Source: Panorpa germanica (taxonomy: Eukaryota > Arthropoda > Insecta > Mecoptera > Panorpidae). From it: DNA of 64,000 nucleotides. The translations under genes and the position numbers were made by a program. Where the stretch lies: positions 2,924,152 to 2,988,151 of the forward strand of contig OY783218.1 in the NCBI GenBank assembly GCA_963678705.1, written 5' to 3'. Below the pieces are notes generated by a model. The model saw nothing but the letters and a program-made list of their open reading frames with translations. It was not told the DNA's origin and did not search any database. Below are positions 3,225 through 33,069 of the stretch, piece after piece; the first letter of the stretch is position 1; every line of letters starts with the position of its first letter.

Positions 3225-3636
3225 AAAAAATGTATATGAAAATAGTGTTGCGTTAATTTCTGGTGTAAATTTTTATTATCATGTGCTAAATAATAAATTA
3301 CTATCATGTACTAAATGACCCCATCCATAGTTTGCATAGACCTAACATTACCTGTTCGTTACCTGTTACACAGTGCCGTGCATGTTTTTTTTTTTATGTT
3401 TTTCAGAGAATAAATATAATTAATATTTTGAATAAACAAGACCGTTTTGTAAGAGATTCTGATCTGTATTAAATTGTTTTTAGTAACCTTCTTTTGTTAT
3501 TTGCAAAATTACATGCAAGTAAAAACATTGCTTGCAATTGCAATCTTACTAAATCTCAATAGTTTTACGTCAATTTAAAATATGTTATGATTTGCATATG
3601 CTCGCGTGTTACATTCGGATTCAGTTATAAAATGTA

Positions 3637-4689
3637 ATGTGTGTGATAATGGGCTGGGCAAATCAGCATTTGTTGGCCGTCGGAACGGCACTCGCACTAT
3701 GTATTCTTTCTTTCGTTTACGTTTTCCTTTTTCCGCTATACGGCGTCGTCGGACCTCCCTACAATGTAAGACCGCTAATAGAGTACGAGCAATCCCTATG
3801 TACAGAAAATCTCAGTCGCTTGCTTGTACCGAAAGCGTGGAAACGCCACTGCCCTCTAAGGGGGATCGTCACCGTGGCACAGGCCGGGCGACTGGGTAAT
3901 CAGATCTGGGAATACGCTACAGTGTGGGCATTGGCTCGACGAACATGTTTGGAGCCCTACGTCCCTCGCTGTATCCGCACTACCCTCGACACCGTGTTTG
4001 TAGGCCTCAGCATCCCCCCTTTGGGATATATAGCCCATTGTCCAATGCCCGGTCAATGGGACCATTCCTGGAATGTGAGTCAATCTGACAGAGAGCCCCG
4101 CAGCATTGTTCTGCCTGGCTACATTACGTCGGCAGATCTCGTACTGGCTTGGGGAGACGATATTCGCCATGAGCTGAAGTTTCGACCAAAACTGATTGCC
4201 ACCAGTCAAGATATTTTGAGGGATGCTGAACGCAGACTGAAGAGATCGGGTGGTCTGACATGCACAGAGAACGTCACTGTTTTTGTTGGAATCCATGTTC
4301 GTCGCACTGATTACCGCGAATACTTGCAACGGACTCTCCAGCGACCCCTTGTCGGCACGGAATACTTTCAGATGGCCATGAATCACTTTGAGAATAAGTA
4401 CGGCGACTGTGTGGCCTTCATCATCGTCAGCGACGACATCAAGTGGTGCACGAACAACCTGTTCACCAACAGAAGCAACGTGGCACTAGCAACTTCAAAC
4501 GGGGAACCAAACTTTGCAGGACTGGATCTAGCTGTTATGGCATCATGCAATCACTCCATAATAGATTATGGAACCTTTGGAGTATGGGGCGCAATTCTTG
4601 CAGCTGGAGAAACTGTTCTTTATAATATTTCCGAACACTCGTCGGTTCGGGTAAGCGAACTCCTTCCCAACTGGCATATTATTAGTTAA
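3637..4689 (+). CDS. Galactoside alpha-1,2-fucosyltransferase (GT11), intronless
   Basis: A 350-residue protein that should transfer fucose from GDP-fucose to the 2-position of galactose on glycans in the Golgi. A short N-tail and one hydrophobic anchor (about residues 9-35) give type II topology. The GT11 blocks are all present: GRLGNQIWEYAT near residue 85, VGIHVRRTDY near 218 (the GDP-fucose-binding HxRRxD motif), and the C-terminal SCNHSIIDYGTFGVWGA near 304. Several N-glycosylation sequons are visible. The first ATG gives MCVIMGW; the second, at 3649, is also plausible. A TCAGTT initiator-like motif lies about 20 bp upstream. The reading frame is a single exon and is GC-richer than the surrounding AT-rich DNA, which suggests retroposition or transfer, although intronless GT11 genes also occur in other animals. 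It looks intact. Confidence 0.9.
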   Translation: MCVIMGWANQHLLAVGTALALCILSFVYVFLFPLYGVVGPPYNVRPLIEYEQSLCTENLSRLLVPKAWKRHCPLRGIVTVAQAGRLGNQIWEYATVWALARRTCLEPYVPRCIRTTLDTVFVGLSIPPLGYIAHCPMPGQWDHSWNVSQSDREPRSIVLPGYITSADLVLAWGDDIRHELKFRPKLIATSQDILRDAERRLKRSGGLTCTENVTVFVGIHVRRTDYREYLQRTLQRPLVGTEYFQMAMNHFENKYGDCVAFIIVSDDIKWCTNNLFTNRSNVALATSNGEPNFAGLDLAVMASCNHSIIDYGTFGVWGAILAAGETVLYNISEHSSVRVSELLPNWHIIS

Positions 4690-6332: not shown

Positions 6333-8614
6333 TCAGGAGTAATTACTTAAACCTTTATGAGTTCTCATGTGTACAGTAAGTGCTCCCTTTTGGGTAAATG
6401 CTTTTTGGCAAATAAAGCACTCATGCGGTTTCTCTCCTGTATGAGTCATACGGTGATTTCTTAATACTTTAGAATACGCAAAACTTCTTGGGCATATATC
6501 ACATACGAAGGGACGATCCGCTGTAAAAAGAAACAATATTAATTCTAATTTTTTTTAAATAATTGGATTGACGTTATAAATTTGTTTAATAAATATTTAT
6601 ATAAAGATTGCATTTATATTTGTAGTAAGAATGTGTAAAAACATAAATTATTGAACTCAATACCTGCTGAACAGTTACTTCTATTTAAGGTTTATCTAAT
6701 ATAACAAAAGATAGTTTTTACGTAAACTACAACGTTTCGTGACTTATTTAAAGCTATTTAAAAAATAAAGTCATATTTTTCGCACTAACATAATCATTAC
6801 ATTTCTAAAGGAGAACTTTTAAGGATTATAAGATCTTAAGCAGTTCTTTTTAAAGTTTTTTTTTTATTTTCCATGTTTTGTGTTTAACTTAGCAACCGAA
6901 CACGTAAAATATAGCGCTTAGAAAATATTTCGTTTCTTTCTATTATATTTACGAGAAATAAGGAATACAACATTTATAAAAAGAAATACGAACCCATGTG
7001 GGATTTCTTATGCTCGTTCAAGTGACTTCTTGTTTTGAAACATTTCTTACAGTGGGAACAAATAAATGGTTTTTCACCAGTATGACTGCGTACATGTGTC
7101 GTTAATTCACTTTTTGTTGCAAATAATTTTCCACAAAGAGAACAAACGAAATTTTTAAATGACGCATGTCTTAAGACATGATTTTTAAGAAAATTTTGTG
7201 ACTTGAAACGTTTTCCACATATCTCACACGGAAAAGGTGTATCTGATGAATGTGTAAGAAGATGACTCTAAAAATTAAAGAAAAAATTTATTATTACAAA
7301 GTATTTTGTTTCTGCTAAGCTGTTAACTTACTGTGAGGCCATTTCCTTGGACAAAAGATTTTCCACACACATCGCATATATATTGTCTGATATTAGCGTG
7401 GATTCGCATGTGTTGTGAAAGCGACGTGGAGTAAGTAAATTGTTTGTCACAGATGCTGCAGTGATATTTCTTAACGTCATTGTGCTACAAACACATTAAA
7501 TTCAAAGTATCAATTACCCTGCGCTAGAAGACATTCCCTTCAAGAATACGTTACCTTTAACATATGCCTTCTTAAACTCCTAATATTAGAAAAATCTTTT
7601 CCACACTGTTTGCAGACTTCTGGCTAAAACAATAATAATTGGGAAATAGCTTATAATTTTTTTTGATATAAATTATGTATTTATTATTACCTTCTTGCCT
7701 TCATGCATTCGAATATGTGCCTCCATACGATCCACACTTTTTAAGGCTTTTTGACAAATTGTGCACACAAGACATTTAATTCTTGTCTTATTTTTTCTCT
7801 TAGAAGGTTTTATATCTGTAGAATTTAATATTTTTTCTTTTAATGAAGAGTCATCTGTTATACTTTTTTCTGTGACTTCTTCGTCAACATCTTCTTCAAC
7901 GTTATTTCCATTATCATCACTACTGTAATTAAATGTGCTGTCTACATCTTTGCATATTATTGGCAAATCACTTTCATCGTGCGAAATATCAGAATGAGAC
8001 AGTCTCGATATATTGCCATTACTTACATTTTCACTGTTAGAAATTTTTTCAATATTTTGATCTAAAATCAATCAATAATCAATTGATAACAAACTCTCTT
8101 ACACAATAACAAAATAAAATGATTACAGACGCGTTGGTTTGCAGCATGTAAAATAATAGGTCTTTAATAATTAGGTGAAGTTAATTTAATGGAAACATAT
8201 TAGTTTAATAACTGTTAAGTTGCGTACCAAGGGCTTGATATTGAATGTTCAAAATACTTTCTTTTAATGTAGCATTAGAAGTAACGCATAATTGTTGAAA
8301 TTTAAAAGTGTTGTTTAAAGTTTGATAGCATTCTAAGCACAAATTCTCTGGTAATCCATCATCTTTCGAAACCTATTTAAATAAATAAATATAATTAATA
8401 CTATAAGTTTCATTGAAAAATAGAAAATACAAAAAGAAACTAAACGTGTGTTAATCAAACGTTTCTGTTTCTAATAATACCTAACCTCAATTGAAGTACA
8501 ACTTGTAAATATTGTTGCATTTTCATTACAAAATAAAGATTGTAAATGTTCAGCGTCTGTTTTTAAGCATGCACGACACATATCGTTTATTTGAATAAAT
8601 TCCATTGAACACAT
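6333..8614 (-). CDS. ZAD C2H2 zinc-finger transcription factor A
   Basis: Seven minus-strand exons: 8486-8614, 8228-8372, 7691-8061, 7555-7623, 7332-7484, 6994-7267 and 6333-6520. All borders are GT-AG and the total is 1329 nt (442 residues). The first two exons encode a ZAD dimerisation module, with CRAC near residue 13 and CLEC later supplying the four zinc-binding cysteines. An acidic linker follows, then nine C2H2 fingers, several joined by TGEKP-type linkers. The last finger is FICQKAFTQKGALTVHMRTH. Such proteins bind DNA in the nucleus and usually repress or organise transcription; the target is unknown. The start was taken at MCSMEF because family members begin close to the CRAC motif; an upstream frame extension exists but is hydrophobic and unlike the family. 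It is a paralogue of, and divergent from, the gene at 8768. Confidence 0.85.
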
Positions 8615-8767
8615 AATTAAATTTTCTAATGTTTTCACACAAGAAAATAAATTTTGACACTTAAGATTTAAACAGACATTTAAATGACAGTGACAGTTGA
8701 GTTCAAGCAAGTACAACAAAGTACAAGTTTGGCAAGTGTATTACTTCTTTTACTTTTTAATAATAAG
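8615..8767. promoter_or_regulatory. Shared divergent promoter of the two ZAD zinc-finger genes
   Basis: Only 153 bp separate the two opposing start codons, so this segment must hold both 5' leaders and promoters, or their core parts. I see no clear TATA box. Co-regulation of the pair is an inference from the spacing. Confidence 0.55.
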
Positions 8768-10741
8768 ATGACACATATTACTAACAAATCGTTTGAAATA
8801 AATAAAATATGTAGAGCTTGTTTGAATAATAAAGATTGCTTGGAACCTATTTGTAATTCATATTTAAAAGAACTTTTTATTGTGCTAACAAATTTAGAGG
8901 TTAGTTAATAAAATATTGATGGTAATATGACTTACTCATTAAAATAGATTTATTTTTAACTAAAATGCCTTTTTTTCAATTTAGATAAATGAAAATGATG
9001 GTCTACCTTCCAATTTGTGTTTAAATTGTGTGGAACGCCTAAACATTTGTTATTCTTTTCGGGAACAATGTATTAAAAATGATGTTATATTGAAAGAAAG
9101 TCAGGTATGATGGGCATGATGCAGTACATATTACAATTATAAATAATGTTTTTTTTTAATTATATTGTTTATCTCATTTCCAGAAAATAAAAACCGAAAA
9201 CTCGGATACTGCAGGTAGGGTTTATACCTTATATTTTGTAGTCAAATACGTTCTTTAAGAAAAGCTTTTCTTTTTAAGATATTTCATCCACTGGAAATGA
9301 AAATGAAGTTTCAATAAGTCATTTTTTGGAACTTTCATACATAGATAAATGCGACAATGTAAACTTAAGACCAGTAGTAACAAAGAGTATAAGTAAAACT
9401 TCTGCTATATTGGATATAAAAGAAGAAACAATAAATTGCGATTTGGTTAAAGACAACAATAGAAATGAACAGTTTCCTCATGAATCAAGTAAAATTAGTT
9501 CCAAAGAAAACGAAAATAATCAAACGAGTATTAGAAATCTTAGAAAATCAAAACGTACTTTAAAGTACTCCTGCAATTCTTGTGAAAAGAAATTTGATAT
9601 TTTAAATTCTTTAAAATCACATATTTTAGATGAACATACAACAGTTGAGAAATCACTGGATGATCCCAGGTTGGTGAAATGTTAGAATAAGACAAAAATA
9701 TGTAAAAGAAGAATTATTAATGAAAAATTTGAAATATGTATAGATCCCCGGAATCTCCAAAATCTAAACGAAAACACTCGGGAAAAAAGAAAAGCCTTGC
9801 ACAAAATTTCAATTTGAATCTCTCTTGTCCAAGTTGTTCACAAACGTTCAAAAAAGCTGACAGATTAGAAGCTCATTTTCGGGAGCATTTGGGCAAAAAG
9901 GTAGCAATTTTAAAATATTATGCAATATAGAACTCTTGTAGTAAAGAAAGTTAACATCAATCATTTATACTCATTGTTTTTTTTATTATTTTAGCCAGAA
10001 GTTTGTAAAGAGTGTAACGGGGAATTCGCAAATCGCAAAGCTTTAAAAAGGCATATGCTAAAGCACACTGGAGTCAGAAATCATGTTTGTTCGGAATGTG
10101 GAAAATGTTTTGCATATTTACAAGTTTTAAAAATGCATGAAAAAATCCATACGGGAATAAGAGCTTACATATGCGATGTCTGCGGAAACTCATTTCTTAC
10201 CAATAACAATTTAAAAGTAAGTCAACTAAAGTAACTAGCTTTAGTACAAAGTAATCCTGTATCTTTTAATAATAAATTCTTCTTATTTCTACAGCTACAT
10301 TACGCTAATAAACATAGTGACGAGCGACCTTTTTGCTGTGAGATATGCCCCCTAACTTTTAAGAATTCATCTGTATTAAAAATGCATATGTTTAGACACT
10401 CTGGTGTTAAAAATTTTATATGCACATTGTGTGGACATCGAACAGCAACTAAAGGAGAATTAACAGCGCATACTAAAACTCATAGTCAAGAAAAACCATT
10501 TGCTTGTACTACATGCTCTAAGAAATATAAGACTTCTAAAGAATTAGTAATTCACAACAGAATGCATACTGGGGAACGTCCATATTTATGTGATTTATGT
10601 CCCATGTCATTTACCATGCTTAAAATTTTGAAAAATCACAGAATGACTCACACTGGTGAAAAACCATTTGCCTGTAATGTGTGCCAAAGAGCATTTACAC
10701 AAAAAGTTACATTAAAAACTCATATGAAGACACATACTTAA
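8768..10741 (+). CDS. ZAD C2H2 zinc-finger transcription factor B
   Basis: Seven exons: 8768-8899, 8985-9104, 9184-9214, 9279-9669, 9744-9900, 9995-10216 and 10295-10741. All have GT-AG borders and total 1500 nt (499 residues). The N-terminal ZAD carries CRAC near residue 16 and CLNC in exon 2. A lysine- and serine-rich linker follows, then ten C2H2 fingers. The C-terminal fingers use canonical TGEKP/TGERP linkers and end FTQKVTLKTHMKTH. The finger-encoding exons start with the same PEVCK peptide as gene A, which indicates an inverted duplication. Role: nuclear sequence-specific DNA binding, target unknown. Poly(A)-signal-like AATAAAA lies about 30 bp after the stop. Confidence 0.87.
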
Positions 10742-11393: not shown

Positions 11394-14300
11394 TTATTTG
11401 GTCGTTACTGTTTTTTTGAATGAATTTATTCTGTTAATCGCTTCTTCTAGCGAAATATTTCCCTGTTTAATATCAAGAAGAGTCTTATCTAGATGAATAA
11501 TTCTCTTTGTAGTTTCTTCTAAATTGGCTTTCAGTCTTTGCTTCTTATAAAAGGAAGAAGGAGGTGGCCGAGATGTATTGTACAGATGCGTAAAGTCACA
11601 ACTTACATTACATATATTAAATGGAGATGATGATCTTGCTTCATATTGGTTAGTAAGGATTACACTTTCAAAAGACGTATTAATTAAGTCACAGCTTACG
11701 TCACATATATTAGTTGGAGATGATGATCTTGCTTCATATTGGTTTGTAAGCGTTACACTTTCAAAAGACGTATTAATTAAGTCACAGCTTACGTCACATA
11801 TATTAGCTGGAGATGATGATCTTGCTTCATATTGGTTTGTAAGCGTTACATCTTCAGAAGATGTATTAACTAAGTCACAGCTTACGTCACATATATTACC
11901 TGGAGATGATGATCTTGCTTCATATTGGTTTGTAAGCGTTACATCTTCAGAGGATGTATTAACCAAGTCACAGCTTACGTCACATATATTAGTTGGAGAT
12001 GATGATCTTGCTTCATATTGGTTAGTAAGGATTACACTTTCAAAAGACGTATTAATTAAGTCACAGCTTACGTCACATATATTAGCTGGAGATGATGATC
12101 TTGCTTCATATTGGTTTGTAAGCGTTACACTTTCAAAAGACGTATTAACTAAGTCACAGCTTACGTCACATATATTAGCTGGCGATGATGATCTTGCTTC
12201 ATATTGGTTTGTAAGCGTTACATCTTCAGAAGATGTATTAACTAAGTCACAGCTTACGTCACATATATTACCTGGAGATGATGATCGTGCTTCATATTGG
12301 TTTGCAAGCGTTACATCTTCAGAGGATGTATTAACCAAGTCACAGCTTACGTCACATATATTAGCTGGAGATGATGATCTTGCTTCATATTGGTTTGTAA
12401 GCGTTACACTTTCAAAAGACGTATTAACTAAGTCACAGCTTACGCCACATATATTAGCTGGAGATGATGATCTTGCTTCATATTGGTTTGTAAGCGTTAC
12501 ACTTTCAAAAGACGTATTAACTAAGTCACAGCTTACGTCACATATATTAGCTGGCGATGATGATCTTGCTTCATATTGGTTTGTAAGAGTTACACTTTCA
12601 AAAGACGTATTAACTAAGTCACAGCTTACGTCACATATATTAGCTGGTGATGATGATCTTGCTTCATATTGGTTTGTAAGAGTTACACTTTCAAAAGACG
12701 TATTGACTAAGTCACAGCTTACGTCACATATATTAGCTGGTGATGATGATCTTGCTTCATATTGGTTTGTAAGAGTTACACTTTCAAAAGACGTATTAAC
12801 TAAGTCACAGCTTACGTCACATATATTAGCTGGAGATGATGATCTTGCTTCATATTGGTTTGTAAGAGTTACACTTTCAAAAGACGTATTAACTAAGTCA
12901 CAGCTTACGTCACATATATTAGCTGGTGATGATGATCTTGCTTCATATTGGTTTGTAAGAGTTACACTTTCAAAAGACGTATTAACTAAGTCACAGCTTA
13001 CGTCACATATATTAGCTGGAGATGATGATCTTGCTTCATATTGGTTTGTAAGAGTTACACTTTCAAAAGACGAATTAACTAAGTCACAGCTTACGTCACA
13101 TATATTAGCTGGAGATGATGATCTTGCTTCATATTGTTTAGAAAGGGTTACAATTTCAAAAGACGTATTAACTAAGTCACAGCTTACGTCACATATATTA
13201 GTTGGAGATGATGATCGTGCTTCATATTGGTTTGTAAGAGTTACACTTTCAAAAGACGTATTAACTAAGTCACAGCTTACGCCACATATATTAGCTGGAG
13301 ATGATGATCTTGCTTCATATTGGTTTGTAAGCGTTACACTTTCAAAAGACGTATTAACTAAGTCACAGCTTACGTCACATATATTAGCTGGCGATGATGA
13401 TCTTGCTTCATATTGGTTTGTAAGAGTTACACTTTCAAAAGACGTATTAACTAAGTCACAGCTTACGTCACATATATTAGCTGGTGATGATGATCTTGCT
13501 TCATATTGGTTTGTAAGAGTTACACTTTCAAAAGACGTATTAACTAAGTCACAGCTTACGTCACATATATTAGCTGGTGATGATGATCTTGCTTCATATT
13601 GGTTTGTAAGAGTTACACTTTCAAAAGACGTATTAACTAAGTCACAGCTTACGTCACATATATTAGCTGGAGATGATGATCTTGCTTCATATTGGTTTGT
13701 AAGAGTTACACTTTCAAAAGACGTATTAACTAAGTCACAGCTTACGTCACATATATTAGCTGGTGATGATGATCTTGCTTCATATTGGTTTGTAAGAGTT
13801 ACACTTTCAAAAGACGTATTAACTAAGTCACAGCTTACGTCACATATATTAGCTGGAGATGATGATCTTGCTTCATATTGGTTTGTAAGCGTTACACTTT
13901 CAAAAGACGAATTAACTAAGTCACAGCTTACGTCACATATATTAGCTGGAGATGATGATCGTGCTTCATATTGGTTTGCAAGCGTTACATCTTCAGAGGA
14001 TGTATTAACCAAGTCACAGCTTACGTCACATATATTAGCTGGAGATGATGATCTTGCTTCATATTGGTTTGTAAGCGTTACACTTTCAAAAGACGTATTA
14101 ACTAAGTCACAGCTTACGTCACATATATTAGCTGGCGATGATGATCTTGCTTCATATTGGTTTGTAAGCGTTACACTTTCAAAAGACGTATTAACTAAGT
14201 CACAGCTTACGTCACATATATTAGCTGGAGATGATGATCTTGCTTCATATTGTTTAGAAAGGGTTACAATTTCAAAAGACGTATTAACTAAGTCACAGCT

Positions 14301-15181
14301 TACGTCACATATATTAGTTGGAGATGATGATCTTGCTTCATATTGGTTAGTAAGGGTTACACTTTCAAAAGACGTATTAACTAAGTCACAGCTTACGTCA
14401 CATATATTAGCTGGAGATGATGATCTTGCTTCATATTGGTTTGTAAGCGTTACATCTTCAGAAGACGTATTAACTAAGTCACAGCTTACGTCACATATAT
14501 TAGCTGGAGATGATGATCTTGCTTCATATTGGTTTGTAAGCGTTACATCTTCAGAAGATGTATTAACTAAGTCACAGCTTACGTCACTTATATTAACTGT
14601 AGATGATGATCTTGCTTCATATTGGTTAGTAAGGGTTACACTTTCAGAAGACGTATTAACTAAGTCACAGCTTACGTCACATATATTAGCTGGAGATGAT
14701 GATCTTGCTTCATATTGGTTAGTAAGCGTTACATCTTCAGAAGATAAGTAACAGCTTATATCACAAAGATTTATGAGCGATGATGATCTTGGATTGTTAA
14801 ATGCAGCGTAAGATAATTGCTCGTTAAAATCATTAAAAGAATCATTTATTAAATCTAAGCTTATATCGCTAATATTGTATGGTAATGGTATTGCATGTGG
14901 TTGAAGGCCTTCTTTGAAATCTTCATAGGACTCTTCTAACAGTTCTTCTGTATAACTAAAGTTAGTATATAGTATATCTATACTGTTTACAAAATTACAA
15001 TAAAACTTTGTATTGATTATATTAGCTTCGTTTTCATCTTGAATATTGTCCTAGAAGAAAAAGATAAAATAGAATTTTGAAGTCTGTGCATTAATAAAAT
15101 AATAACCAGAAGAGTTTTCACACTTACCGATAAAAAAGATTCAACTCCAGAATCGTCAAATGCTAAAACTTTGTTTTCCAT
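11394..15181 (-). CDS. Unrecognised protein made of 34 tandem 31-residue repeats
   Basis: Two coding exons (15128-15181 and 11394-15050) give 1236 residues; a noncoding first exon at 15286-15309 is likely. The start peptide is MENKVLAFDDSGVESFLS, with no signal peptide. An acidic N-region of about 100 residues follows, then 34 repeats of about 31 residues. The core of each repeat is NQYEARSSSPANICDVSCD, with two invariant-looking cysteines and a serine-rich stretch. The C-terminal 50 residues are lysine- and leucine-rich and look like a coiled coil. I do not recognise the family. The opposite strand is also open for 1057 codons, but that is a by-product of a 93-bp unit without stops. Differences between units (for example ACG/ACT, AGA/CGA, TCT/TCA/TCG, GTT/GTC) are largely silent in the minus frame and change residues in the plus frame, so minus is the coding strand. 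The long exon continues open back to its acceptor at 15051-15052. Confidence 0.75.
11594..14755. repeat. 93-bp coding minisatellite, 34 units
   Basis: Head-to-tail units of 93 bp (31 codons), each containing GATGATGATCTTGCTTCATA or a close variant. Units fall into subtypes. A block with the variant GCCACAT starts near 12443 and again near 13280, exactly 837 bp (nine units) later, and is followed by the same run of subtypes, so multi-unit blocks have duplicated. One further worn half-unit lies at 14755-14800 with a 9-bp in-frame deletion. Confidence 0.95.
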
Positions 15182-15302
15182 GTTAGAATTTGGTGCACTT
15201 TATTTTGTCTGACACAAGGTTTTATTAAAATATCAATTTAAGTAAAATTGAAACTTAAAATAAATTTATTTTGGTAAACACTTACTTGTAGAGGTGTTGT
15301 TG

Positions 15303-15342
15303 ATAAACTGAATTTGTGAATAAATTTTGTGGTTCTTTTATA
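15303..15342 (-). promoter_or_regulatory. TATA box and arthropod initiator of the repeat gene
   Basis: On the minus strand TATAAAAG starts at 15342 and the initiator TTCAGTT has its A at 15309, 33 bp downstream, the canonical spacing. A splice donor CAA/GTAAGTG at 15284-15288 follows, which predicts a 24-nt first exon spliced to an acceptor just upstream of the ATG. Confidence 0.65.
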
Positions 15343-18308: not shown

Positions 18309-21300
18309 TTAGTTGACTGATATATTAATTTGAATCCAGGATGCGTAAGCTGCAACCCGAACATAAACCGAAGGCAGTCCAGGGCGTCCGCAGGGTACGA
18401 ATCCCCAAGAAACAACTCCGACAATTTGGGCCTGAAAATATACAACAATGTAATCATCGCTGATAAGAAGTAAAAGTAAGTTTTAACAGGTTTATGGTAG
18501 AATTTGTTACTAAAGGTAACTTACTTCTCCTCCAACGTATGTGAACAAGGGGCCACCGGAGTCTCCAGAGCAAGCGCTGATTCCTCCAGTGATAGGTCCC
18601 GTGCATAGATTGTTAGAGTGGAATGGCGTTGTAGCCAAGATAGTTGAACAATCGCTTTGTGGAAGAATTGGCTTTTCAACGGTCTGAAATTTCATTTATT
18701 TGTCTAATTCATGTTCTTGGTTCCATTTAACTTGTGTATATGTGTAGAGTTGCGAGTATATCTACCTGTAGGATATTAGGTCTTGTAGGCACAGAGGTTT
18801 CCGAGGTGGAGCCCCATCCTGCGAGTCTGGCGGTGCCGGGGTCCGATGTTGAAGCAGCCGGTAGATTAATGGGTCTCACTGCTTCATTGAATTGCAAAGG
18901 TTGTGACAAACGGAACTAAATAACAATAAAAACAAATAAATCACTTGTTGTGTTATTTAATGCTTGCTAAGGGCGTAGTTGCATTAGCGTATTTTATCAA
19001 GAGAGGAAGTTTCTATTTTATTGTTTATCAATACACCTCTGTTATAAAATAATCCTCAGTTCATATATATCGTACACATTGGTGCGACTTAAACATGCGA
19101 CACTTATAAAACACTTACTTTTGCTATTATTAAAAATTCCAGGTAGTATTTTTATGAAACAAAAATGTTTCAATCCTTTAAATGGGCAAAAGAAATATAC
19201 CTGGACAATAGACCCTTGTCGAACTTAGTCTGACAAGGGTAAGCACGAATAATCATCAGTGACCTTGTTAAGTATCTGGGTTTTATTACTTTTTTTTTAG
19301 ACATATTTCTATTTGGCTAAGATTTATTACATTTTTTTTAGCCATATTTCTTTTTGGCTAAGGCTTATTTCTTTTTTTCTTTAGACATTTTATTTTTAAC
19401 TGAGTTTTATTACTTTATTTCTTTAAACATATATTTTTTTAAATGAGTTTTATTACTCTTTTTCTTTGGACATATTCTTTTCTAAAGCAGGCTGAAGGAA
19501 TTTGTTCGAAATATGAAAGCTTCCGACGTATTAAGTTGCATGTCGCACTGGAACAACTACTTCCAACAAATGTTGGATGTCGCATGTTTAAGTCGCACGT
19601 ATGTGTACGATACTTAATATGGTTCCTATATGTATAGATAAAAATACCGGTTTCCGTTTATATGGATGAATTTGTTGAGATAATACTGAACGTGCGCGGT
19701 CTTCCTTATGTTTGCAACGTCATAGACAGCAGATTGTCCGAAATTGGAAAACAATACAGGTACATAATATGCACTTTTATTAGTTTCAAATAGCGGTCCC
19801 AGTAATCATTTGGTGAAATAGAATGGCTAGGTGAAGTTCTAGTCACTCGTTCATTTCAATTCTAACGTTTTACAAGTTGGAGCAACATACAGAAAATCAA
19901 TTTTAGTTCAAATTGATTCCCTACCTGTCACAGGAGTCGCTTTTATTCAACAGTGAGCAGTCGTTGCGCCATCTGTAGCTCATAAAAAGACATTCTCTAT
20001 GAACGACTGAATAGAAAACAAACGCGTTCATGACAAAAAACTCATGAAAAGTAATAGTCCAAGATCTACTACAAGCTCTACTCATAAACACAACTACACT
20101 GTATACTATATACTGTATATAATACGGTGTGCGCAATAGTATATACGCATCCACAATAGACTGAAACAGATTGTGAGTTTAAGAAGGGGAACCGAGTCAC
20201 CATGGATGTCAGAGCTTTAAAGCGTCTGACAAAAGTTCTGGCCCATGGAAAGCGTCTGACACTTTTAATTTTACTTCAGAATAACATTCTACAAAATATA
20301 TTTAAAAATCAGTCATACAAATTTAAGTAAAGTAACTCTGATTTTTAGTTACCTTTCTCACCTGGTACCTGCCCAGGTGTTACCGAGCGAACTCCACAAA
20401 TACGCAGGTATTAAAAGTACATGTAGAGACTACTTAGAACCGAAAGTTCTATGCTTTTGAAAATAAGTTATGTCAGATCGCTCTGGGATCTTATTCTATA
20501 ATAGAAATGAAATAGAATTTACTCTAAAATGTTTACTGGGGTGTATTGCTAGACAATAAAGTGACAGATTCTACTCAGGATATAGTATGCTAAAGTGAAA
20601 CAACTAGAATAAACTCTATTGATAAAGTCGTGGGCTGCAAGTAGTCAGATACTCACTAATGCAATGTCATGGGGGGCCACACCGCCTACGTAATCAGGGT
20701 GTAGGATCCGCACGACAATGTCTCGTCGCTGTTCCGTGGCTTCGTTGAGGCTCAAATCGTGTTTTCCAGCAACAACCTGCAAAGGAGCATTCAAAAAATT
20801 AGTAAGCATTGTATCAATTTAATATAGAAATGGATTAAGCACCTAGAAAACCATGTTATTTCAATTAGAACACAAAGTTAGTTCAATGGCCTTGTGAACT
20901 CATTTTTAGGAGTCGTTTTTTAATTTTTCATACAAATATAGGTTAACATATGGATAATGACGTTTTTATTTTTTTAAATATTCAAAAGTTGACAGCGATA
21001 CAGCTTTTGAAAATTTGAATTTCAGTTTTGCCGCTTGAGGTAACTCTGCGTGTGACGTCACTGAAGAAATAAGTAAAATGATTACGAAATGAAAAAACGG
21101 CTAATTAAAAAGTAATTGAACATTTGAGGTCCTGATTGCCGACTTTATCAATATATAGAACCGTTTTATAAAAATTAAAACATGGTTCATAAAAATTGAT
21201 ATTTAACGAAGCTGAATTCGTAAAGAATTCTCTAAAGAGTACGATTTCATTATACAGTTTACTGCGTAATTACGTACGTCGATAATTCCAAACGCTGGCA

Positions 21301-21841
21301 TATCGGTCACGCAATGGGCAGCTGTTAGGACGTACAACTCGTTGACAATAGTTCCGCCGCATACGTGCTGAGGAATTGCCCCTGCAGTAGAACGCCACTG
21401 TACAGAGACGACAAATGGAAATTGGTTTTGTTGAGCATTTTGACCACCGACGATTCGTCCAGAAGAAAATCCAAGCTGAATTCCTGATAAAAGTAAAAAG
21501 TTGAAATATTAGGAAATGCTTTTTAAAAGTCTTGCCTTCTGTTGAACTCAATTGTATCTAGTCATAAGGTGCCATCCATAAATTACGTCAAACAAATTTC
21601 CTGCAATTTTAATCCCTCTGTCTTTGTCACATTTTGGAGGGTGCTTTTATTTAGAAACGTTAGATCTTGCAAAGTTCCAACAAAACAAAAAAAACGTAAT
21701 GCATATTTCCATATGTTATACAACTTAAATTAAATACAAAATTAAAACATTGAGTGGGAATGATACTTAAGTATAGTTCATACCTGGAGCAGCGGCAGCC
21801 GCTGTCAGAAAAGCGCCAAGTGTTAGAAGAAGCAATTTCAT
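18309..21841 (-). CDS. Chymotrypsin-like serine protease (S1A), secreted
   Basis: Six exons: 21784-21841, 21278-21483, 20657-20776, 18766-18915, 18525-18683 and 18309-18431. They total 816 nt (271 residues), a normal length for an insect gut chymotrypsin. A signal peptide (MKLLLLTLGAFLTAAAAAP) precedes a short propeptide cut before IVGG in GRIVGGQNA. The catalytic triad is present: His in LTAAHC, Asp in HDIAL (split from exon 4), Ser in SACSGDSGGPL. The residue six before the catalytic serine is Ser, with Gly at the two other pocket positions, which indicates chymotrypsin rather than trypsin specificity. Likely a digestive enzyme released into the gut lumen. Intron 3 (18916-20656) is enlarged by two transposons. 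All joins keep phase, and the gene looks intact. Confidence 0.9.
19068..19612. mobile_element. MITE in chymotrypsin intron 3 with about 33-bp inverted ends
   Basis: TATCGTACACATTGGTGCGA at the left end is mirrored at the right end, and the match continues through ACTTAAACATGCGACA. The interior is mostly a T-rich tandem array. I could not define a target duplication. Confidence 0.7.
19277..19490. repeat. Degenerate T-rich tandem repeat, about four units of 50-55 bp
   Basis: Each unit has a TTTTATTAC block, a T-run and TTAGACATATTTC or a variant. It forms the core of the element at 19068-19612. Confidence 0.6.
19798..20540. mobile_element. CCCAGTAAACA-family element, copy in chymotrypsin intron 3 (743 bp)
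   Basis: Ends CCCAGTAATCATTTGG and AAAATGTTTACTGGG are inverted. The dinucleotide GT flanks both sides (19796-19797 and 20541-20542). The ends match the other family members; the interior is partly different. Confidence 0.7.
20888..21190 (-). repeat. Worn relative of the GGGCTTGTGTCC MITE family
   Basis: Internal blocks (GTCGTTTTTTAA, CAGCGATACAGCTTTTG, ACATTTGAGGTCCTG) follow the same order as the better copies, with degraded ends. It lies in intron 2 of the chymotrypsin gene. Confidence 0.5.
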
Positions 21842-24964: not shown

Positions 24965-26754
24965 TTAATAGTTGTCTCTAACAAATTCGCCAAATGCTCT
25001 GATAGCATGGAAAGTTTCTTTAGCAATCCGTAAAATTTTTCTTGGTGCAGGAGTGAACGAATTTCCTGAGACTTCTATAGTGTACGCATATTTAACGCCA
25101 GCTACTCCTTTGGCATAGTCATCGCTTCCTCCTGCAGCTGGGTAAAATTCTGCAGAGGATTGAACAGTATATTTGGTCTCTGGAAAAGATACACAGTGAT
25201 TACCGGGACAAATTACTAGGTTTTCCACGAATCGAAACACACCACCTATATTTGTTTGTAAATTGTGTTTCTTACTTGTCGCATTGTAAATAGCTTGAGC
25301 AGCAGCTACACCAAGGTTGTGTAGATCTTCCCAATCTTCAGGAAATTCTTCAGCGTATCCCCAGGGGTACAAAATAAGATTCCCATAGCTATGTACACTG
25401 AGATAAAGTTGAATATTTTGTTGGCTGTGCAACAGTTTGGCGAGTAGTTGCGTTTCTGGTACTGACAGAGCTGCAGATCCCGCATAAATTTCATCACAAG
25501 GATAATCGCTGGCCCCGCTATGCATCCAGTAATAGTCGTAGTTTCTATTTCCATCGGTGCCAAGGCAGGAAGATCCGTTGTTCACATTACGTGTTTTTCT
25601 CCACCAAATATCCTGTAAAAAATTATGTGAGTTGACGCAATGTTCAATAACTTACAAAAATAAATCTACTCACATCGGTGTGCGCGAATTCGTAACCATC
25701 CGGGTTAATCAATGGAATAATGAGCCAATCAGCGTTGTCCAATAGGTCGCTGTTTTCAGGGTTGATTAGTTGTTCGATAGCGTACAGCGCCACATGTGGG
25801 GCCATCCATTCCCGAGCATGAATGGTAGCATCTAGTAAAATGGCTGGTTTACTTCCCCCGCCGCCACTGGAGATCTTGATTAGTTTAATAATTCGTCCCT
25901 CGGAGCTACGTCCAGTGTTGTCTACCGTCACGAGATCAGGATGTTCTGCTGCTATTGAATCTAAATGCTTGTTTATCTGTTGGCATAAAAAACCAGTACC
26001 AATAAAGTTAAACCGCAAATTAGAGTAGCACAATTACCAAAGGGGAATCTAGAAACATTTACCTCATCGTATCGGAGATACCTGTCATAGGAAAACCGAC
26101 CATTTGACCTTGTACGCGCAGCTTCATTCTCACGGCGTATTTGGTTGGTAGTTCTGGAAGTTAGAAAACATGTGAACCGGCGCACATCACTTTATTTAAG
26201 AAAGATCTTCGAGTTTGTAAATTAAAACGATAGTTACCTTTCGACATCTGAATCAATTATTGACAACGAAATCTCTTTGGCTTTAAGAAAGGCAACAAGA
26301 GCAATTTCTTGAAGTGGGTTGACTAGGATTTAAACTGGGTGACCTACAAATCGAGGTGACGTCAAAAAATCATAGCCACGCTGCAAGCTGCTTAATTGAA
26401 TTAGCCCTTGAAGCTGAGCGTTGTCTAAAGGAGTCGCTTCATAGATTTTATAACTGAAACAAGATAATATATATTGCATAAATTTCTGTCGAAGTGGTAG
26501 ATTTTTATTTTGTTGAATTGAATGAATATTTAACATCTCATTTAACAAAATTACCAATGAAAGGGCGTGTCTAAAGTCGAAAAATCAAACTGTTGGAGAA
26601 AACTAATGTGGTCACAGCCTTTCTATGATAAATGCAGAATTGTCTTTAGATCAGAGTGATCTTAGTCAATCAAGTATATATTATAAACTTACCCTTTATA
26701 GGACACTCCTTGCACAGCCGCGACCACGACAAGTACATTTAATAGAACATGCAT
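24965..26754 (-). pseudogene. M14 carboxypeptidase B-like gene 1, in-frame stop in propeptide
   Basis: Six exons: 26693-26754, 26238-26453, 26063-26153, 25674-25976, 25276-25612 and 24965-25179. They would give 407 codons with phases that all close. Exon 2 reads RFVGHPV then TAA then ILVNPLQEIAL, where both paralogues have CAA (Gln). This single nonsense codon in the activation peptide would stop translation before the enzyme. The catalytic part is otherwise well kept: HAREW supplies zinc His/Glu and Arg71, GNRNY supplies Arg145, LSVHSYGN the third zinc His, FYPAAGGSDDYAKG the Tyr248 region with Asp255, and TIEVSG the catalytic Glu. Asp at 255 is the carboxypeptidase B signature (removal of C-terminal Lys/Arg). 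The gene is a recent pseudogene, a null allele or a base error. Confidence 0.8.
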
Positions 26755-26760
26755 TTTATT

Positions 26761-26800
26761 GCAACTGTAATTGCCAATTAGCGCCGGTTCCAATTTTATA
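26761..26800 (-). promoter_or_regulatory. Core promoter of carboxypeptidase gene 1
   Basis: TATAAAA (minus strand, from 26800) and ACAGTTGCA near 26762-26770 match the same pair upstream of the two paralogues. Confidence 0.55.
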
Positions 26801-27339
26801 ACTTTGTGATTAATAGTGCTGATAGCGTTTGAAGTGCAACTAATTAAAGGACAGTTATCATATCACAAACTGCGTTTTATTTTAATTGCAAAAACGTGAT
26901 CATATAAAGAAGCGTCTATACTGATATAACTTTACCTTATAACACCAATATTATGTTTCAGTATTCAGCTGATGATGATGCAACGTCTACAAGAAGGACT
27001 GTCCCCAGTAAATAATATGCCAATACTCCATTGGAAATCATATTTTACTACCAAATCCACTAAACCTTTAAGAGTCTTTTTTTTTAATATATAGTTTGTC
27101 GGGCTTCCTAGGCATGTAGCCTTTTATCGCCCCTAATATTGTTCTGCTTCTTCTTATACTTTATATCCAGACAACAAGAATGATCTTTTCATGGCTACTG
27201 CTGTTATAAATTTCGGTTTCAATGCGGAGTCAATGCGGATAAAAGATCATGCGATCTACAGTTATTTTCTTATGCAACCAAACGGTTTCTGGGTCCTTCT
27301 CCCAAAGAAAGATGCTTGACAAACCTACCTACTCAAGAC
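26801..27339. other. Spacer with a minus-strand LINE 3' end
   Basis: About 27060-27175 is the reverse complement of the LINE tail near 34780-34920 (shared ATTAGGGGCGATAAAAGGCT and CCTAGGAAG, then an A-rich end). No host gene. Confidence 0.6.
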
Positions 27340-27714
27340 CCCAGTAAACAATTTGGTGAAGTGTCCTATTTGGTGAAGTTCGAGTCACTCGTACAATTCA
27401 ATTCTAACGCTTTACAAGTTCTCTACCTGTCACAGATTTTGTGTTAGTTTTTCATAATAATATTCTTTCTTTTTCCAACATCATTCATTAAGTATTTCTG
27501 TTTCTTTCCCACATGGGTATATTTTTATTATCCAGTCATAAATCATAAACCTACTCCGCTTTTAATTCAGCAGTGAACCGTCGTTGCAATGTCTGTAGCT
27601 CATAAAAAGGACCTTTCCTTTGAACGACTGAATAGAAAACGAACACGTTCCAGACAAAAAATTCATGATGTGTAATAAAAATTAAGTAGAATTTACTCCA
27701 AAATGTTTACTGGG
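27340..27714. mobile_element. CCCAGTAAACA-family element (375 bp)
   Basis: Ends CCCAGTAAACAATTTGG and CCAAAATGTTTACTGGG, flanked on both sides by the dinucleotide AC. It is in the opposite orientation to the 1-kb copies and carries only their outer parts, an internal-deletion derivative. Confidence 0.8.
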
Positions 27715-28005
27715 ACTAGGAGTATAAATACTATGAGACTGAGACTTGTAAAGAATTTTCTCATCCTCTCCTTCTTGTTTCAATTCCTGTTATTCTCAGA
27801 AAATAAAATAGACATTTAAATTCTATTCAGTAAGGATTACCTTTCTTATTGAAGCGTCTAGCTGACTACGGAGTAGAATTTTTATCCGAGATAAAATATA
27901 AACATTAATATAATAAAAGAAGGCTAATATGCATAAACATATATTATTTATAAACAAACATTTTTACAACTCAATAAAAAATACTCGTGCTATATTTATG
28001 ACGAC

Positions 28006-29822
28006 TTAGTAGTTGTCGCCAATAAATTTGCCGAATACTCTGATACCTTCGAAAGCTGCTTTTACGATTGGTAAAATTCTCCGTGGATTTGGTATATTCA
28101 ATGCTCCCAGTTCTATAGTGTACGCATATTTCACGCCTAGTACTCCCTTGGCATAGTCATCGCTTCCTCCAGATGCTGGGTAGAGCTGCGCCGAAGGTTT
28201 AACAGTGTACCTGATCTCTGTAACAGACACACACTGATTATTATCTGAATCTAACAGTGCTCATACCTTAATTTTGTTTGGGGCTTACTTGAAGCATTGT
28301 AAATTGCTTGTGCCGCATCTAAGCCAAGCTTGTGTAGATCTTCCCAATCTTCTGGTAATTCATTAGCGTATCCCCAGGGGTACAAAATGAGATTTCCATG
28401 AGTGTGCAAGGTGAGATAAAGATGAATGTTTTGGCGGCTCTTCAACAGTTTCGCGATGAGTTGCGTTTCAGGCACCGATAAAGGAGCAGAACCAGCATAA
28501 TGATCTGCGCAAGGATTAGCACTGGACCCACTATGCATCCAGAAATAGTCGTAATTTCTATTTCCGTCAGTGCCAAGGCAGGAAGATCCGTTATTGACAT
28601 TACGAGTTTTTCTCCATGCCGTATACTATAAACAAAATTATGTTAGTTAACGCAATGCGCAAATATTTACAAAGAAACCACAAAATCAATCTACTCACAT
28701 CAGTGTGCGAGAATTCGTAACCATCCGGGTTAGCCAAAGGAATAATGAGCCAATCAGCGTTGTCCAATAGGTCGCTGTTTTCGGGTTTAACTAGTTGATC
28801 AATAGTGTACAACGCTAAATGTACGGCCACCCATTCTCGGGCATGGATGGTAGCATCAATTACAATTGCTGGTTTAGTGCCCCCGCCGCCACTGGAGATC
28901 TTGATTAGTTTAATAATTCGTCCTTCTGAGCTACGTCCTTTGTTGTCTACCGTCACGAGATCTGGATGTTCTGTTGCTATTGAATCTAAATGTTCGTTTA
29001 TCTGTTGGCATAAAAATCAATAAAGTTCAACAGCAAATTGAAATAATAAAATAGATTTGCGGGCTCATTTTCTTGCAAATAATTTAAAATTTAAGACATG
29101 GTTCACAAGCTCATAAACAAGGGATATCTGGGAACATTTACCTCGTCGTATCGAAGATACCTGTCATAGGAAAACCGGCCATTTGATCTCGCACGTGCAG
29201 CTTCATTCTCACGGCGTATTTGGTTGGTAGTGCTGGAAATTACAAATATCTATGAAGACTAAAGCTCCTTGTGTAAAGTGTTCTTCATGAACCATTATTT
29301 GGTATATTGCAACTCAGTCATCTATGAAGCATCAATCATGCGAGAACACTGTTTCAATTCATCCTCTCTTGTACTCGTGAAACCGAACATTGACTGATAA
29401 AAATGAATATAATATTGAAGGGAAAGATGTAAAATGCAGTTACCTCCCGAAGTCCGAGTCGAATATTGACAATGAAATGTCTTTTGCCTGCAGATAGGAA
29501 ACGAGAGCACTTTCCTGGATTGGGCTGACCAGGATTTGTACTGGGCGGCCTACAAATCGAGGGGGCGCCAAGAAGTCGTATCCACCCAACGCGTTCAACT
29601 GATTTAGTTCCTGAAGCTGGGTGGTGTCCGCAGGAGTTACCTCATAAATTTTATACCTAGTGGAATGAGGAAAATAATTTAATTAGTCGTTTTAAACTTT
29701 TATAATAGGAGTTATAACATAACTAGGACAAGTCTACCACAAACACACCCTTTGTAATCGAAAGGAACACCTCGCACTACTACAACCGCGAGAGCCACTA
29801 CTAAAACACAGGATGTACGCAT
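28006..29822 (-). CDS. M14 carboxypeptidase B-like proenzyme, gene 2
   Basis: Six exons: 29749-29822, 29444-29656, 29142-29232, 28699-29001, 28289-28625 and 28006-28217. They total 1230 nt (409 residues), typical for an insect digestive procarboxypeptidase. The signal peptide MRTSCVLVVALAVVVVRG is followed by an activation peptide of about 95 residues and then the catalytic domain. Zinc ligands are in HAREW and LTLHTHGN. Substrate-binding arginines are in HAREW, WRKTRN and GNRNY. Tyr248 lies in LYPASGGSDDYAKG and the catalytic glutamate in TIELG. Asp at position 255 predicts cleavage of C-terminal Lys/Arg (B type). No stop or frameshift was found. It is the middle member of a tandem array in one orientation, probably acting with the neighbouring chymotrypsin in the gut lumen. 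Confidence 0.9.
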
Positions 29823-29830
29823 GTTAATGC

Positions 29831-29865
29831 AACTGTCGCCAATTACTGGCGTGCCTACATTTATA
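29831..29865 (-). promoter_or_regulatory. Core promoter of carboxypeptidase gene 2
   Basis: TATAAAT starts at 29865 on the minus strand and the ACAGTTGCA initiator-like motif follows about 31 bp later, close to the ATG. The arrangement is the same at gene 3. Confidence 0.6.
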
Positions 29866-30471
29866 ACATTTTGGTCGGACTGATTAATCGGCTCATCTAA
29901 TTATGATAATTTATGATATGCATTTTTGTAATGCAGTCGAATAAGGAGCTACACTGTTGCAATTATCTACTATAGCAAATTTAATTAAATGTAGATAATA
30001 ATTAAATAAAGTGAAATTTATAAAACAATTATACTGGATAGAATGGATAGAAAATGGTAGAAATTTATAGTGAGTAAATTGGAAGCTAAGATTTTAACTG
30101 TAGAACATTCATCATCTAACATAGGACTTATTTGGTTATATTGATATCATTACTAACTAATTTTAACATGAACATGTTGTTACATCCCCGTTGAAAATGT
30201 AAACTGTGATCAATTCTCTATTAAAAGTCCTTTATGACTGTATTTAGCCACATTAAGTAAAGAAATTTATCTTAATTCTAATAGTTAAAGTATATTAAAT
30301 TAACAACGTAAATCAGATATCTGTTATCACGAGACAGCTCGTTAAAGGAATATTTTTATTTCAACACTAACAGTTAAGAAATGATAAAATGTTCTACATT
30401 CAAGTAGTCCTCATACATTTTGATACATTGTAATACTTTGAAGGACTATTGTTTAGAACTATCGACCCATC
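29866..30471. repeat. 5' flank of gene 2, duplicated upstream of gene 3
   Basis: Near-identical to 33113-33771, including long exact runs. No coding sequence. It is part of the segmental duplication that created genes 2 and 3. Confidence 0.8.
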
Positions 30472-30669
30472 CAGGGCCGCATTTTGATGTGTGCTGGCCC
30501 TGGGGCAACGAAGGAGCAGAGGCCCCTAATTATTTTCAGAATAAAAGGAACAATTTTTTTCTGTCAAGTTTTTCAAAAATTAATTGCTTTTATCTCTACT
30601 GTGGGGGCCCCTCTCCTGTGGAGTCCCCGCGGCAGTAGCCCCTCCTACTCTGCCTCAAATGTGGGCCTG
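30472..30669. mobile_element. hAT-type MITE (198 bp) within the duplicated flank
   Basis: Starts CAGGGCCGCATTTTGATG and ends CTCAAATGTGGGCCTG. The flanking 8-mers GACCCATC and AACCTATC are a worn 8-bp target duplication. The same insertion is present at 33772-33940, so it predates the duplication of the carboxypeptidase block. Confidence 0.75.
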
Positions 30670-31314
30670 AACCTATCTACTCTTCGTGTTTCTCTTTAAT
30701 TTTTGCAGGTGAAATTCCTCACTAGGTGAAGTTTCAGTCAATGCCAAAGAAGGCGTTTAGATTACAAAAAGTGAAATGGTTTCGCCATGAACGACTGAAC
30801 TGCGAGTAAACTCTTTCATGAAACACTCTATTAATAAATAAGTCTTGCAATTGTAGTAATCCGAAAAAGGTATTTTGTGGGTTTAATAATCCAGAATAAG
30901 GGTTTCCATGATTCTCTTAAAATAATAAACAAAGTAACTCAAAAATTTAACATTTTCTATTATGTTAAATAAATATAAAATGTTTATAAAAAATGTTCAG
31001 TGAACAATAGATTGGCCTTAATTTCTATAAAATTGTGCTACATATTGATAAAGTTGGTTACCTGAACCTCAAATGTCTATTTTTTTTTATATAAGTCGCA
31101 ATAATATAGGAGATTTAGGAATTAAAGAAGTTATTTTTGTTACTGTAATCATTAATCACAGCCCTTTGCAACGGTAGTGTATTATTTGGTGACAAAATAC
31201 GAGTATAAACAAACAAGTTTGAGTAAAGAAAATATTTGTAATAAACATTTGAATAAATAAATAATATACAATATTAGGTATCAATAATTTTTACTATTGA
31301 CATTAGTTTTAGGA
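30670..31314. other. Spacer between carboxypeptidase genes 2 and 3
   Basis: The first part (to about 30830) continues the segmental duplication. The remainder contains a worn piece resembling the GGGCTTGTGTCC family near 31020-31150. No gene. Confidence 0.4.
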
Positions 31315-33069
31315 TTAGTAGTTATCGCCAATAAATTCACCGAAAACTCGGATAGCATGAAAAGTTTCTTGTACAATTGGTAAAATTCTTCTTACTGGTG
31401 GAAAAAAGTAAGGTCCTGGTAGTTCTATAGTGTATGCATATTTAACGCCAGCTACTCCTTTGGCATAGTCATCACTCCCTCCTGACGATGGGTAGAGTTC
31501 CGCAGAAGATTCAACAGTATAGGTGGTTTCTGTAATAAACGTAAAGTAATCAGTGCCGAAAGTCAAACTCATGTATTTGTAGATGTTGTTTCTTACTTGT
31601 CGCATTGTAAACTGCTTGTGCAGCAGCTACTCCAAGGTTGTGTAAATCTTCCCAATCTTCTGGTAATAAATGTTCGTATCCCCATGGATACAAAATAAGG
31701 TTCCCAAACGTATGCACGGAGAGATAAAGTTTAATGTTTTTACGGCTCTTCAACAGTTTCGCGATGAGTTGCGTTTCTGGTACCGATAAAGCGGCAAGAC
31801 CAGCGAAATGATTTTGGCAAGGATCATCACTGGACCCACTATGCATCCAGTAAAAGTCGTAGTTTCTATTTCCATCGGTGCCGAGGCAGGAAGATCCGTT
31901 ATTGATATTACGAGTTTTCCTCCACATCATTGTCTGTGAAAATTTAGATCTTAAAATGCAAAACCAAAAGGAAACAAGAGAAGGCTTATCATTAATGGAG
32001 CTATCTGTAAAAGTAATCTACTTACATCAGAGTGCGAGAATTCGTATCCATCCGGATTAAGCAGAGGAATAATGAGCCAATCAGCATTTTTCAGCAAATA
32101 TCTGTTCTCAGGTTTTACCAGCTGTTCGATAGCGTACAGCGCCACATGTGGGGCCATCCATTCTCGGGCATGAATCGTGGCATCAATTAAAATCTCTGGT
32201 TTAGTGCCCCCGCCGCCACTGGAGATCTTGATTAGTTTAATAATTCGTCCTTCGGAGCTACGTTCTTTGTTATCTACCTTCACGAGATCAGGATGTTCTG
32301 CTGCTATTGAATCTAAATGCTTGTTTATCTGTTGGCATAAAAATCCAATACCAATAAAGTTAAACAGCAAATTAGAGTAGCACAATTACCAAAGGGGAAT
32401 CTAACAATACTTACCTCGTCGTATCGGAGATACCTGTCATAGGAAACCCGGCCATTTGATCTCGCACGTGCAGCTTCATTCTCACGGCGTATCTCTGAGG
32501 TAGTCCTGTAAGTGAAAATGCCTATGAAGACTAAATTTCTTTAAGTAAAGTGTTCTTGATGGATCCCGCTAGTTATTTCAAACAAGTCATGCCATGAAGC
32601 ATCATTCTATCACACAGCGTGAACACTGTTTCTATTAGGAAGATGTAAAATGCAGTTACCTCCCGAAGTCCGAGTCGAATATTGACAACGAAATGTCTTT
32701 TGCCTTCAAATAGGCAACGAGAGCACTTTCCTGGATTGGGCTGACCAGGATTTGTACTAGGCGGCCTACAAATCGAGGGGGCGCCAAGAAGTCGTATCCA
32801 CCTAACGCGTTCAACTGATTTAGTTCCTGAAGCTGGGTCGTGTCCGCAGGAGTCGCCTCATAGATTTTATACCTGGTGGAATGAGGAAAATAATTTAATA
32901 AGACGTTTTAAACTTTATTAAAAGTTATGTACTTTGATTTATGGTTTTCTATAATTCTATATAACATAACTAGGACAAGTCTACCACAAACACACCCTTT
33001 GTAATCGAAAGGAACACCTCGCACTACTGCAACCGCGAGAGCGAATACTAAAACACAGGATGTACGCAT
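31315..33069 (-). CDS. M14 carboxypeptidase B-like proenzyme, gene 3
   Basis: Six exons: 32996-33069, 32660-32872, 32415-32505, 32026-32328, 31597-31933 and 31315-31529. They total 1233 nt (410 residues). The signal peptide starts MRTSCVLVFALAVAVVRG. The activation peptide is nearly the same as in gene 2. The catalytic domain has HAREW, GNRNY, LSVHTFGN, LYPSSGGSDDYAKG and TIELPG, so all zinc, substrate and catalytic residues are present and Asp255 marks the B type. Exons 1-2 and the upstream flank are closest to gene 2, whereas intron 3 and exon 4 are closest to gene 1, which points to gene conversion. The reading frame is intact. Confidence 0.9.

Follow-up and report, generated by a model that had tools for sequence, protein, structure and literature searches.

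A putative minus-strand gene for a 31-residue tandem-repeat protein in Panorpa germanica

In a 64-kb stretch of DNA from Panorpa germanica (64,000 nucleotides in all, called the window below), a long 93-bp tandem array can be read on both strands. This raises the question of which strand codes for a protein, and of what such a protein might do. The openness of both strands, noticed in the original prediction, was found across the whole array: the minus frame is open from 15050 to 11397 (1218 codons, stop to stop), while the plus frame is open from 11551 to 14748 (3198 bp, 1066 codons, stop to stop) and hardly exceeds the array. The locus can be divided into the following parts.

15335..15342, minus strand: TATAAAAG box, read directly in the sequence, with a putative promoter function
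15286..15309, minus strand: putative 24-nt non-coding first exon, with transcription starting at the initiator A, delimited by the initiator on one side and the donor GTAAGTG on the other
15209..15285, minus strand: putative intron 1 of 77 nt, GTAAGTG...TGTCAG, placed by consensus sites
15128..15181, minus strand: first coding exon of 18 codons, with its ATG at 15181
15051..15127, minus strand: putative intron 2 of 77 nt, phase 0, with donor and acceptor sequences GTAAGTG...CTTCTAG
11394..15050, minus strand: long last exon, an open frame of 1218 codons plus the stop TAA (11394-11396)
14757..15050, minus strand: acidic N-terminal region of the long exon, an open frame with the diverged unit(s) inside
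11595..14756, minus strand: 34 tandem units of 93 bp (31 residues), defined by TRF and by the spacing in the frame
11397..11594, minus strand: basic, non-repeat C-terminal 66 residues (pI 10.07), predicted from the sequence and from AlphaFold2 (AF2) to form a helix or coiled coil
11551..14748, plus strand: antisense open frame, judged from the ORF list and synonymous recoding to be a by-product rather than a gene

TRF reports the array at 11593-14744, with a period of 93 bp, 33.9 copies, 95% matches and 0% indels. A single minus-strand frame codes for 34 units, at a spacing of exactly 31 residues throughout. These in-frame units, together with flanks that score as coding in the minus frame only, bear out the gene for a 31-residue tandem-repeat protein that had been placed on this strand. 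Among the 34 units there are 23 distinct units in DNA and 14 in protein, and in unit 1 the 5' part is fused or different. The core motif of the unit is N-[IL]-x-D-[VI]-S, which continues as x-D-L-[VI]-N-x-S-F. The two cysteines and the serine-proline core that had been described for the repeat were also recovered: the typical unit carries the cysteine pair, and S-S-P is found once per unit in 33 of the 34 units (the exception is unit 2).

Coding on the minus strand is well supported, and the flanks and the splice-site layout are better evidence for it than the differences between the units. In the two unique flanks (294 bp and 198 bp) only minus frame 0 is free of stops, the other five frames containing 2-13 of them. 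The codon scores of the flanks are likewise positive in minus frame 0 only (7.7 and 7.4; the other five frames range from -8.9 to -68.6), the codon usage being derived from seven open frames of the window, which comprise 1790 codons of putative genes. When the bases were shuffled, the N-terminal flank (14757..15050) was kept open in 3 of 20000 shuffles and the C-terminal one in 112 of 20000.

For the comparison of the units themselves, 33 units were used, unit 1 being left out on account of its deviating first part. Distinct changes were counted instead of units, as duplication makes the units non-independent. Of the 30 distinct variants, 18 alter the protein in minus frame 0 and 12 are silent there, where a mean of 6.57 is expected under the null (P 0.009). 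The open plus frame has 8 silent changes out of 30 (null 6.36, P 0.27) and the four other frames have 6-9. Relative to the null, N/S amounts to 0.42 on the minus and 0.75 on the plus strand, with P 0.021 for the difference in silent counts. The silent excess on the minus strand is modest: once corrected for six frames, the P value of 0.009 becomes about 0.05, and selection on the minus-strand frame is weakly supported. The original prediction had gone further, regarding the gene as under selection and the unit differences as the pointer to the coding strand. The six-frame count that it had proposed does place the minus frame highest, so the unit differences point in the expected direction, but the excess over the null is small and weaker as evidence than the flanks and the splice layout. 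Its statement that most differences are silent on the minus strand does not hold, since most of them change an amino acid. Nor can its TTA/TTG example discriminate between the strands, as this change is silent in both open frames.

That the plus-strand ORF is the real product, or that both strands code, is exceedingly improbable. It is true that the plus frame stays open over its full 3198 bp and that the codon score of the consensus unit does not separate the frames, favouring neither (2.4 plus vs 2.1 minus). Furthermore, none of the 30 unit variants makes a stop in the plus frame (null mean 2.45, P 0.059), and none makes one in either open frame (joint P 0.025; minus alone P 0.20). These stop-free variants mildly favour some constraint on both frames and are the best point for dual coding. 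However, the plus frame terminates about 45 bp or less from the array edges, it meets 6 and 2 stops when extended into the two flanks, and it contains fewer silent variants. Double openness is also ordinary, because the same antisense register is open by chance in 34% of cases when the codons of one unit are replaced at random by synonyms. Once a single unit is open, nearly all units of a homogeneous array will be.

The exon structure of the repeat gene is inferred from consensus splice sites. With two 77-nt introns, a minus-strand gene from about 15309 to 11394 can be modelled that codes for 1236 residues. The gene would thereby exceed the repeat ORF, with a short coding exon (15181-15128) upstream of the long exon, and the 24-nt non-coding leader may stand before this short exon. 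The TATA/initiator promoter motif that had been predicted is present as well: the minus strand carries the TATAAAAG box (15342-15335) and, downstream of it, TCAGTT (15311-15306), which resembles an initiator. From the first T of the box down to the putative initiator A (15309) the distance is 33 bases. TATAAAA and TCAKT at a fitting spacing occur three times in the 64-kb window when both strands are considered, and one of the three occurrences is the one at the repeat gene. This promoter motif is the sole ground for the tissue specificity put forward in the original prediction.

Several other gene-like frames are found in the window. An apparently divergent pair of C2H2 zinc-finger genes adjoins the repeat gene (6333-8740, minus strand, and 8684-10741, plus strand); the plus-strand piece 10235-10738 is confirmed by Pfam and the rest of the pair consists of ORFs only. 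A glycosyltransferase family 11 gene (Pfam PF01531) is located at 3631-4689 on the plus strand. On the minus strand, trypsin-like serine protease exons (18510-21508) were recognized as ORFs, two pieces of which are confirmed by Pfam, as were three tandem zinc-carboxypeptidase-like genes (24965-32385), where the piece 24968-25651 is Peptidase_M14 by Pfam.

The predicted protein of 1236 residues has a pI of 4.05, and the 34 units make up most of its length. The first coding exon contains the sequence DSGVES, which we take to be a beta-TrCP-like motif; the DSGxxS pattern occurs once in the whole protein. No hydrophobic N-terminal segment was found by hydropathy in the first 40 residues, where the best ten-residue mean is 0.51. 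The absence of a signal peptide, as originally stated, agrees with this, being judged here by hydropathy only and not with a dedicated predictor. At the other end of the protein, hydrophobic residues occupy 61% of the a/d positions of the tail heptads (best of 7 registers), and AF2 places helices at residues 169-198 and 204-214 of the modelled segment (ten-residue blocks: 43, 54, 74, 83, 83 and 55). The heptad pattern and the AF2 helices together give a coiled-coil-like tail, as had been proposed for the C-terminus, although the coiled coil is short.

From the alignments it is firmly shown that one diverged, older unit precedes the array. The 40 residues from the first core motif (NISDIS) to the array align to the unit with a score of 76, which was reached by 0 of 5000 shuffles; in another shuffle test of the N-terminal diverged unit, 0 of 2000 reached the score. 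It is this match beyond the shuffles that identifies the stretch as a diverged unit. Its spacing is longer and it has a core at either end, one lacking cysteines (NISDISLDL) and one, at the array junction, with both (NLCDISCYL). Because the first core has no cysteine and the junction core has both, the core motif may predate the cysteine pair. The 40 residues upstream of the diverged unit were aligned in the same way, and their score was reached in 838 of 5000 shuffles against the standard unit and in 16 of 5000 against the diverged unit. On the strength of the latter match, a second, older unit before the diverged one is probable. Neither the first 60 residues nor the tail aligns to the unit better than shuffled sequences do (292/2000 and 1425/2000, respectively).

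Within the array, with a letter for each distinct unit, units 10-16 read JKLKKMN and units 19-25 read PKLKQMN. Units 11-13 are identical to units 20-22, scattered units recur, and identical unit pairs are commonest at lag 9 (5/24). Judging from this order, the array is shaped by block duplication, the pattern expected of unequal exchange.

Orphan proteins built of tandem repeats are frequently encountered, and annotating them is difficult. The present protein may be called an orphan only in the sense that it is without an accepted relative in its own genome, Pfam, PDB, viral contigs and prokaryotic genomes; across these same collections, it also holds that no family is recognized, as reported from the sequence alone. 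The genome assembly of the insect comprises 464 Mb in 249 contigs. Its mitochondrial COX1 has in-frame TGA codons and its mitochondrial tRNAs are arranged as I-Q-M / W-C-Y / L2 / K-D, both as in insects; neither TTAGG nor TCAGG occurs in it as an exact six-fold repeat, a result that says little by itself. A two-unit query gave 42 matches in this genome: 33 in the array, one just upstream and eight elsewhere. The three best outside matches (E 0.045, 0.125 and 0.23) were considered as paralogues and rejected as chance, since all of them lie in one stretch of a retroelement frame, presumably BEL/Pao-like. The remaining five outside matches have E values of 0.32 and up. With the N-terminal region as query, 24 matches were obtained, namely the region itself, 22 places in the array and one site outside. 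The outside match (E 0.58) was not accepted as a paralogue either, as it contains one internal stop and no frame of at least 95 codons covers it. The tail matched only itself at E<=0.001. Among the matches examined, no paralogue beyond chance was found in the 464-Mb genome, and the repeat gene appears to be an insect protein-coding gene of the ordinary kind, single copy in its own genome at the sensitivity used. Fragments of mitochondrial COX1 are numerous in the nuclear part of the same genome: among the 20 matches listed, 19 are outside the mitochondrial contig C249, on contigs C1, C3, C5, C6, C10, C12, C15, C16, C21 and C115.

Outside this genome, the last four units plus the tail (190 residues) were matched by pattern 7 times among viral contigs and 63 times among prokaryotic genomes, and no match was confirmed. 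By sequence, PDB contains no match to the long exon (E<=1) and none to the N-terminal region (E<=10). Nine weak PDB matches of the tail, the best with E 0.26 and several of them coiled coils, were not accepted as homology. In Pfam, the tail has three matches, all under the cut-offs (best: SHOCT-like, E 0.0089, 16.1 bits vs 27). The whole long exon, on the other hand, scores above the curated cut-offs of PF06594 (60.9 vs 21.4), PF12175 (41.2 vs 24) and PF11681 (28.3 vs 25). Membership of these families was rejected: not one individual stretch passes, and the scores are sums of many tiny repeat matches. In the case of PF06594 (HCBP_related), the best single stretch is 19 residues long and a three-unit fragment scores 18.4, under the cut-off of 21.4. 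Summed repeat scores of this kind are a trap for automatic annotation. In a literature search no description of the repeat protein was found; one may still exist in print.

Two segments of the protein were modelled by AF2 from the single sequence, and in both models each unit forms two long strands, predicted with high confidence (mean pLDDT 70.8 and 79.4; ten-residue blocks within the array reach 95). Taken at face value, the array would be a stiff, beta-solenoid-like stack to which each 31-residue unit contributes two strands, and the whole protein would be a structural fibre, a reading that we consider unlikely. According to passages of PMC11795689, random sequences in perfect repetition are also modelled by AF2 as beta-solenoids with confidence (32 of 78 models), and the beta-strand array is probably this documented artefact. 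In strand alternation, the unit does not surpass shuffled sequences (P 0.53). When one of the two AF2 models, itself not trusted, was used in Foldseek, 130 matches were obtained at E<=10 and none at E<=0.001, and the best query-normalised TM-score is 0.28 among the 50 matches listed.

The best reading, held tentatively and at somewhat less than an even chance, is that the protein is soluble and intracellular and acts as a multivalent scaffold, its short basic tail forming a coiled coil. As the N-terminus is not hydrophobic, the product would be cytosolic or nuclear. The array would display many copies of the short core motif, by which partners could be bound with high avidity, and the copy number of the units may tune the strength of binding. 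The tail would mediate self-association. The charge-hydropathy values do not fit easily here: both protein ends are on the disordered side (the N-terminal region barely, 0.464 vs 0.469), whereas the unit is on the folded side (0.478 vs 0.448), which lends no support to a disordered display array.

With regard to the partner, the S-S-P carried by 33 units hints at a site for a proline-directed kinase and possibly at Polo docking; partners that bind in a phospho-dependent manner, for example Polo kinase, are candidates on this ground. The PBD binds phosphorylated S-pS/pT motifs, as described in passages of PMC8325959. With multi-site Polo-docking proteins such as Drosophila Ana1 (same passages), the repeat protein would share candidate S-S-type phospho-docking sites; the likeness is one of motif type only, and Polo docking in the repeat protein is a guess. 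Since the 33 copies descend from few units, they are close to a single observation, and confidence in any particular partner is low. The patterns RVxF, SILK, MELT, KEN, D-box, LC8, B56, 14-3-3, SxIP and LxxLL have no match in the protein, and neither do full CDK sites ([ST]P.[KR]). Only loose patterns were found: S-[ST]-P (33), T.T (29), DSGxxS (1) and F..P (1).

The kinetochore scaffold KNL1/Spc105 contains arrays of MELT repeats in one long exon, and their copy number changes fast. The repeat protein is alike in kind, a short motif being present many times over within a single long exon. It differs in its motifs, however: the strict MELT pattern (M-[ED]-[LIVM]-[ST]) is absent from its 1236 residues, as are the PP1-docking RVxF and SILK. 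The C-terminal tandem RWD of KNL1/Spc105 was not detected when the long exon and the tail were scanned with Pfam; the RWD model PF18210 finds nothing in the whole genome and may be blind in this insect. A more specific version of the scaffold, lineage-specific and intracellular, in which one undescribed docking motif, perhaps phospho-regulated, recurs about three dozen times, with selection on array length, and KNL1-like in mode and not by descent, is a doubtful proposal.

Lineage-restricted genes with a TATA promoter are often germline-specific. That the product is a fast-evolving, lineage-restricted protein specific to the testis or ovary, with a structural or chromatin role, is a possibility of some weight, if not a likely one: a TATA-type promoter motif stands upstream of the repeat gene, the gene was found once, without relatives found, and the array looks young. 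The acidity of the array speaks against such a gonad protein, and the promoter pattern alone, with three occurrences in 64 kb, is weak. The growth of the array through block duplication and the modest silent excess could also be expected of a non-functional, satellite-like array that is open by chance, or of a pseudogene. This is quite improbable, as 93 bp are kept in every unit, the unique flanks are open with coding-like codons and the consensus splice sites are in phase. Finally, Ser/Thr-rich repeats are common in silk-, glue- and mucin-like proteins, and the repeat protein has this trait of secreted repetitive proteins. A secreted product is very unlikely nonetheless, the N-terminus being without the hydrophobic segment (hydropathy only, first 40 residues).

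The repeat protein is a warning case, in that it scores above unrelated Pfam cut-offs and is given a confident but doubtful AlphaFold2 fold. Should the array of the proposed scaffold be a motif display, the presence of a diverged unit next to the homogenised copies would make it a clean system in which to study how multivalent binding is tuned by the number of copies.
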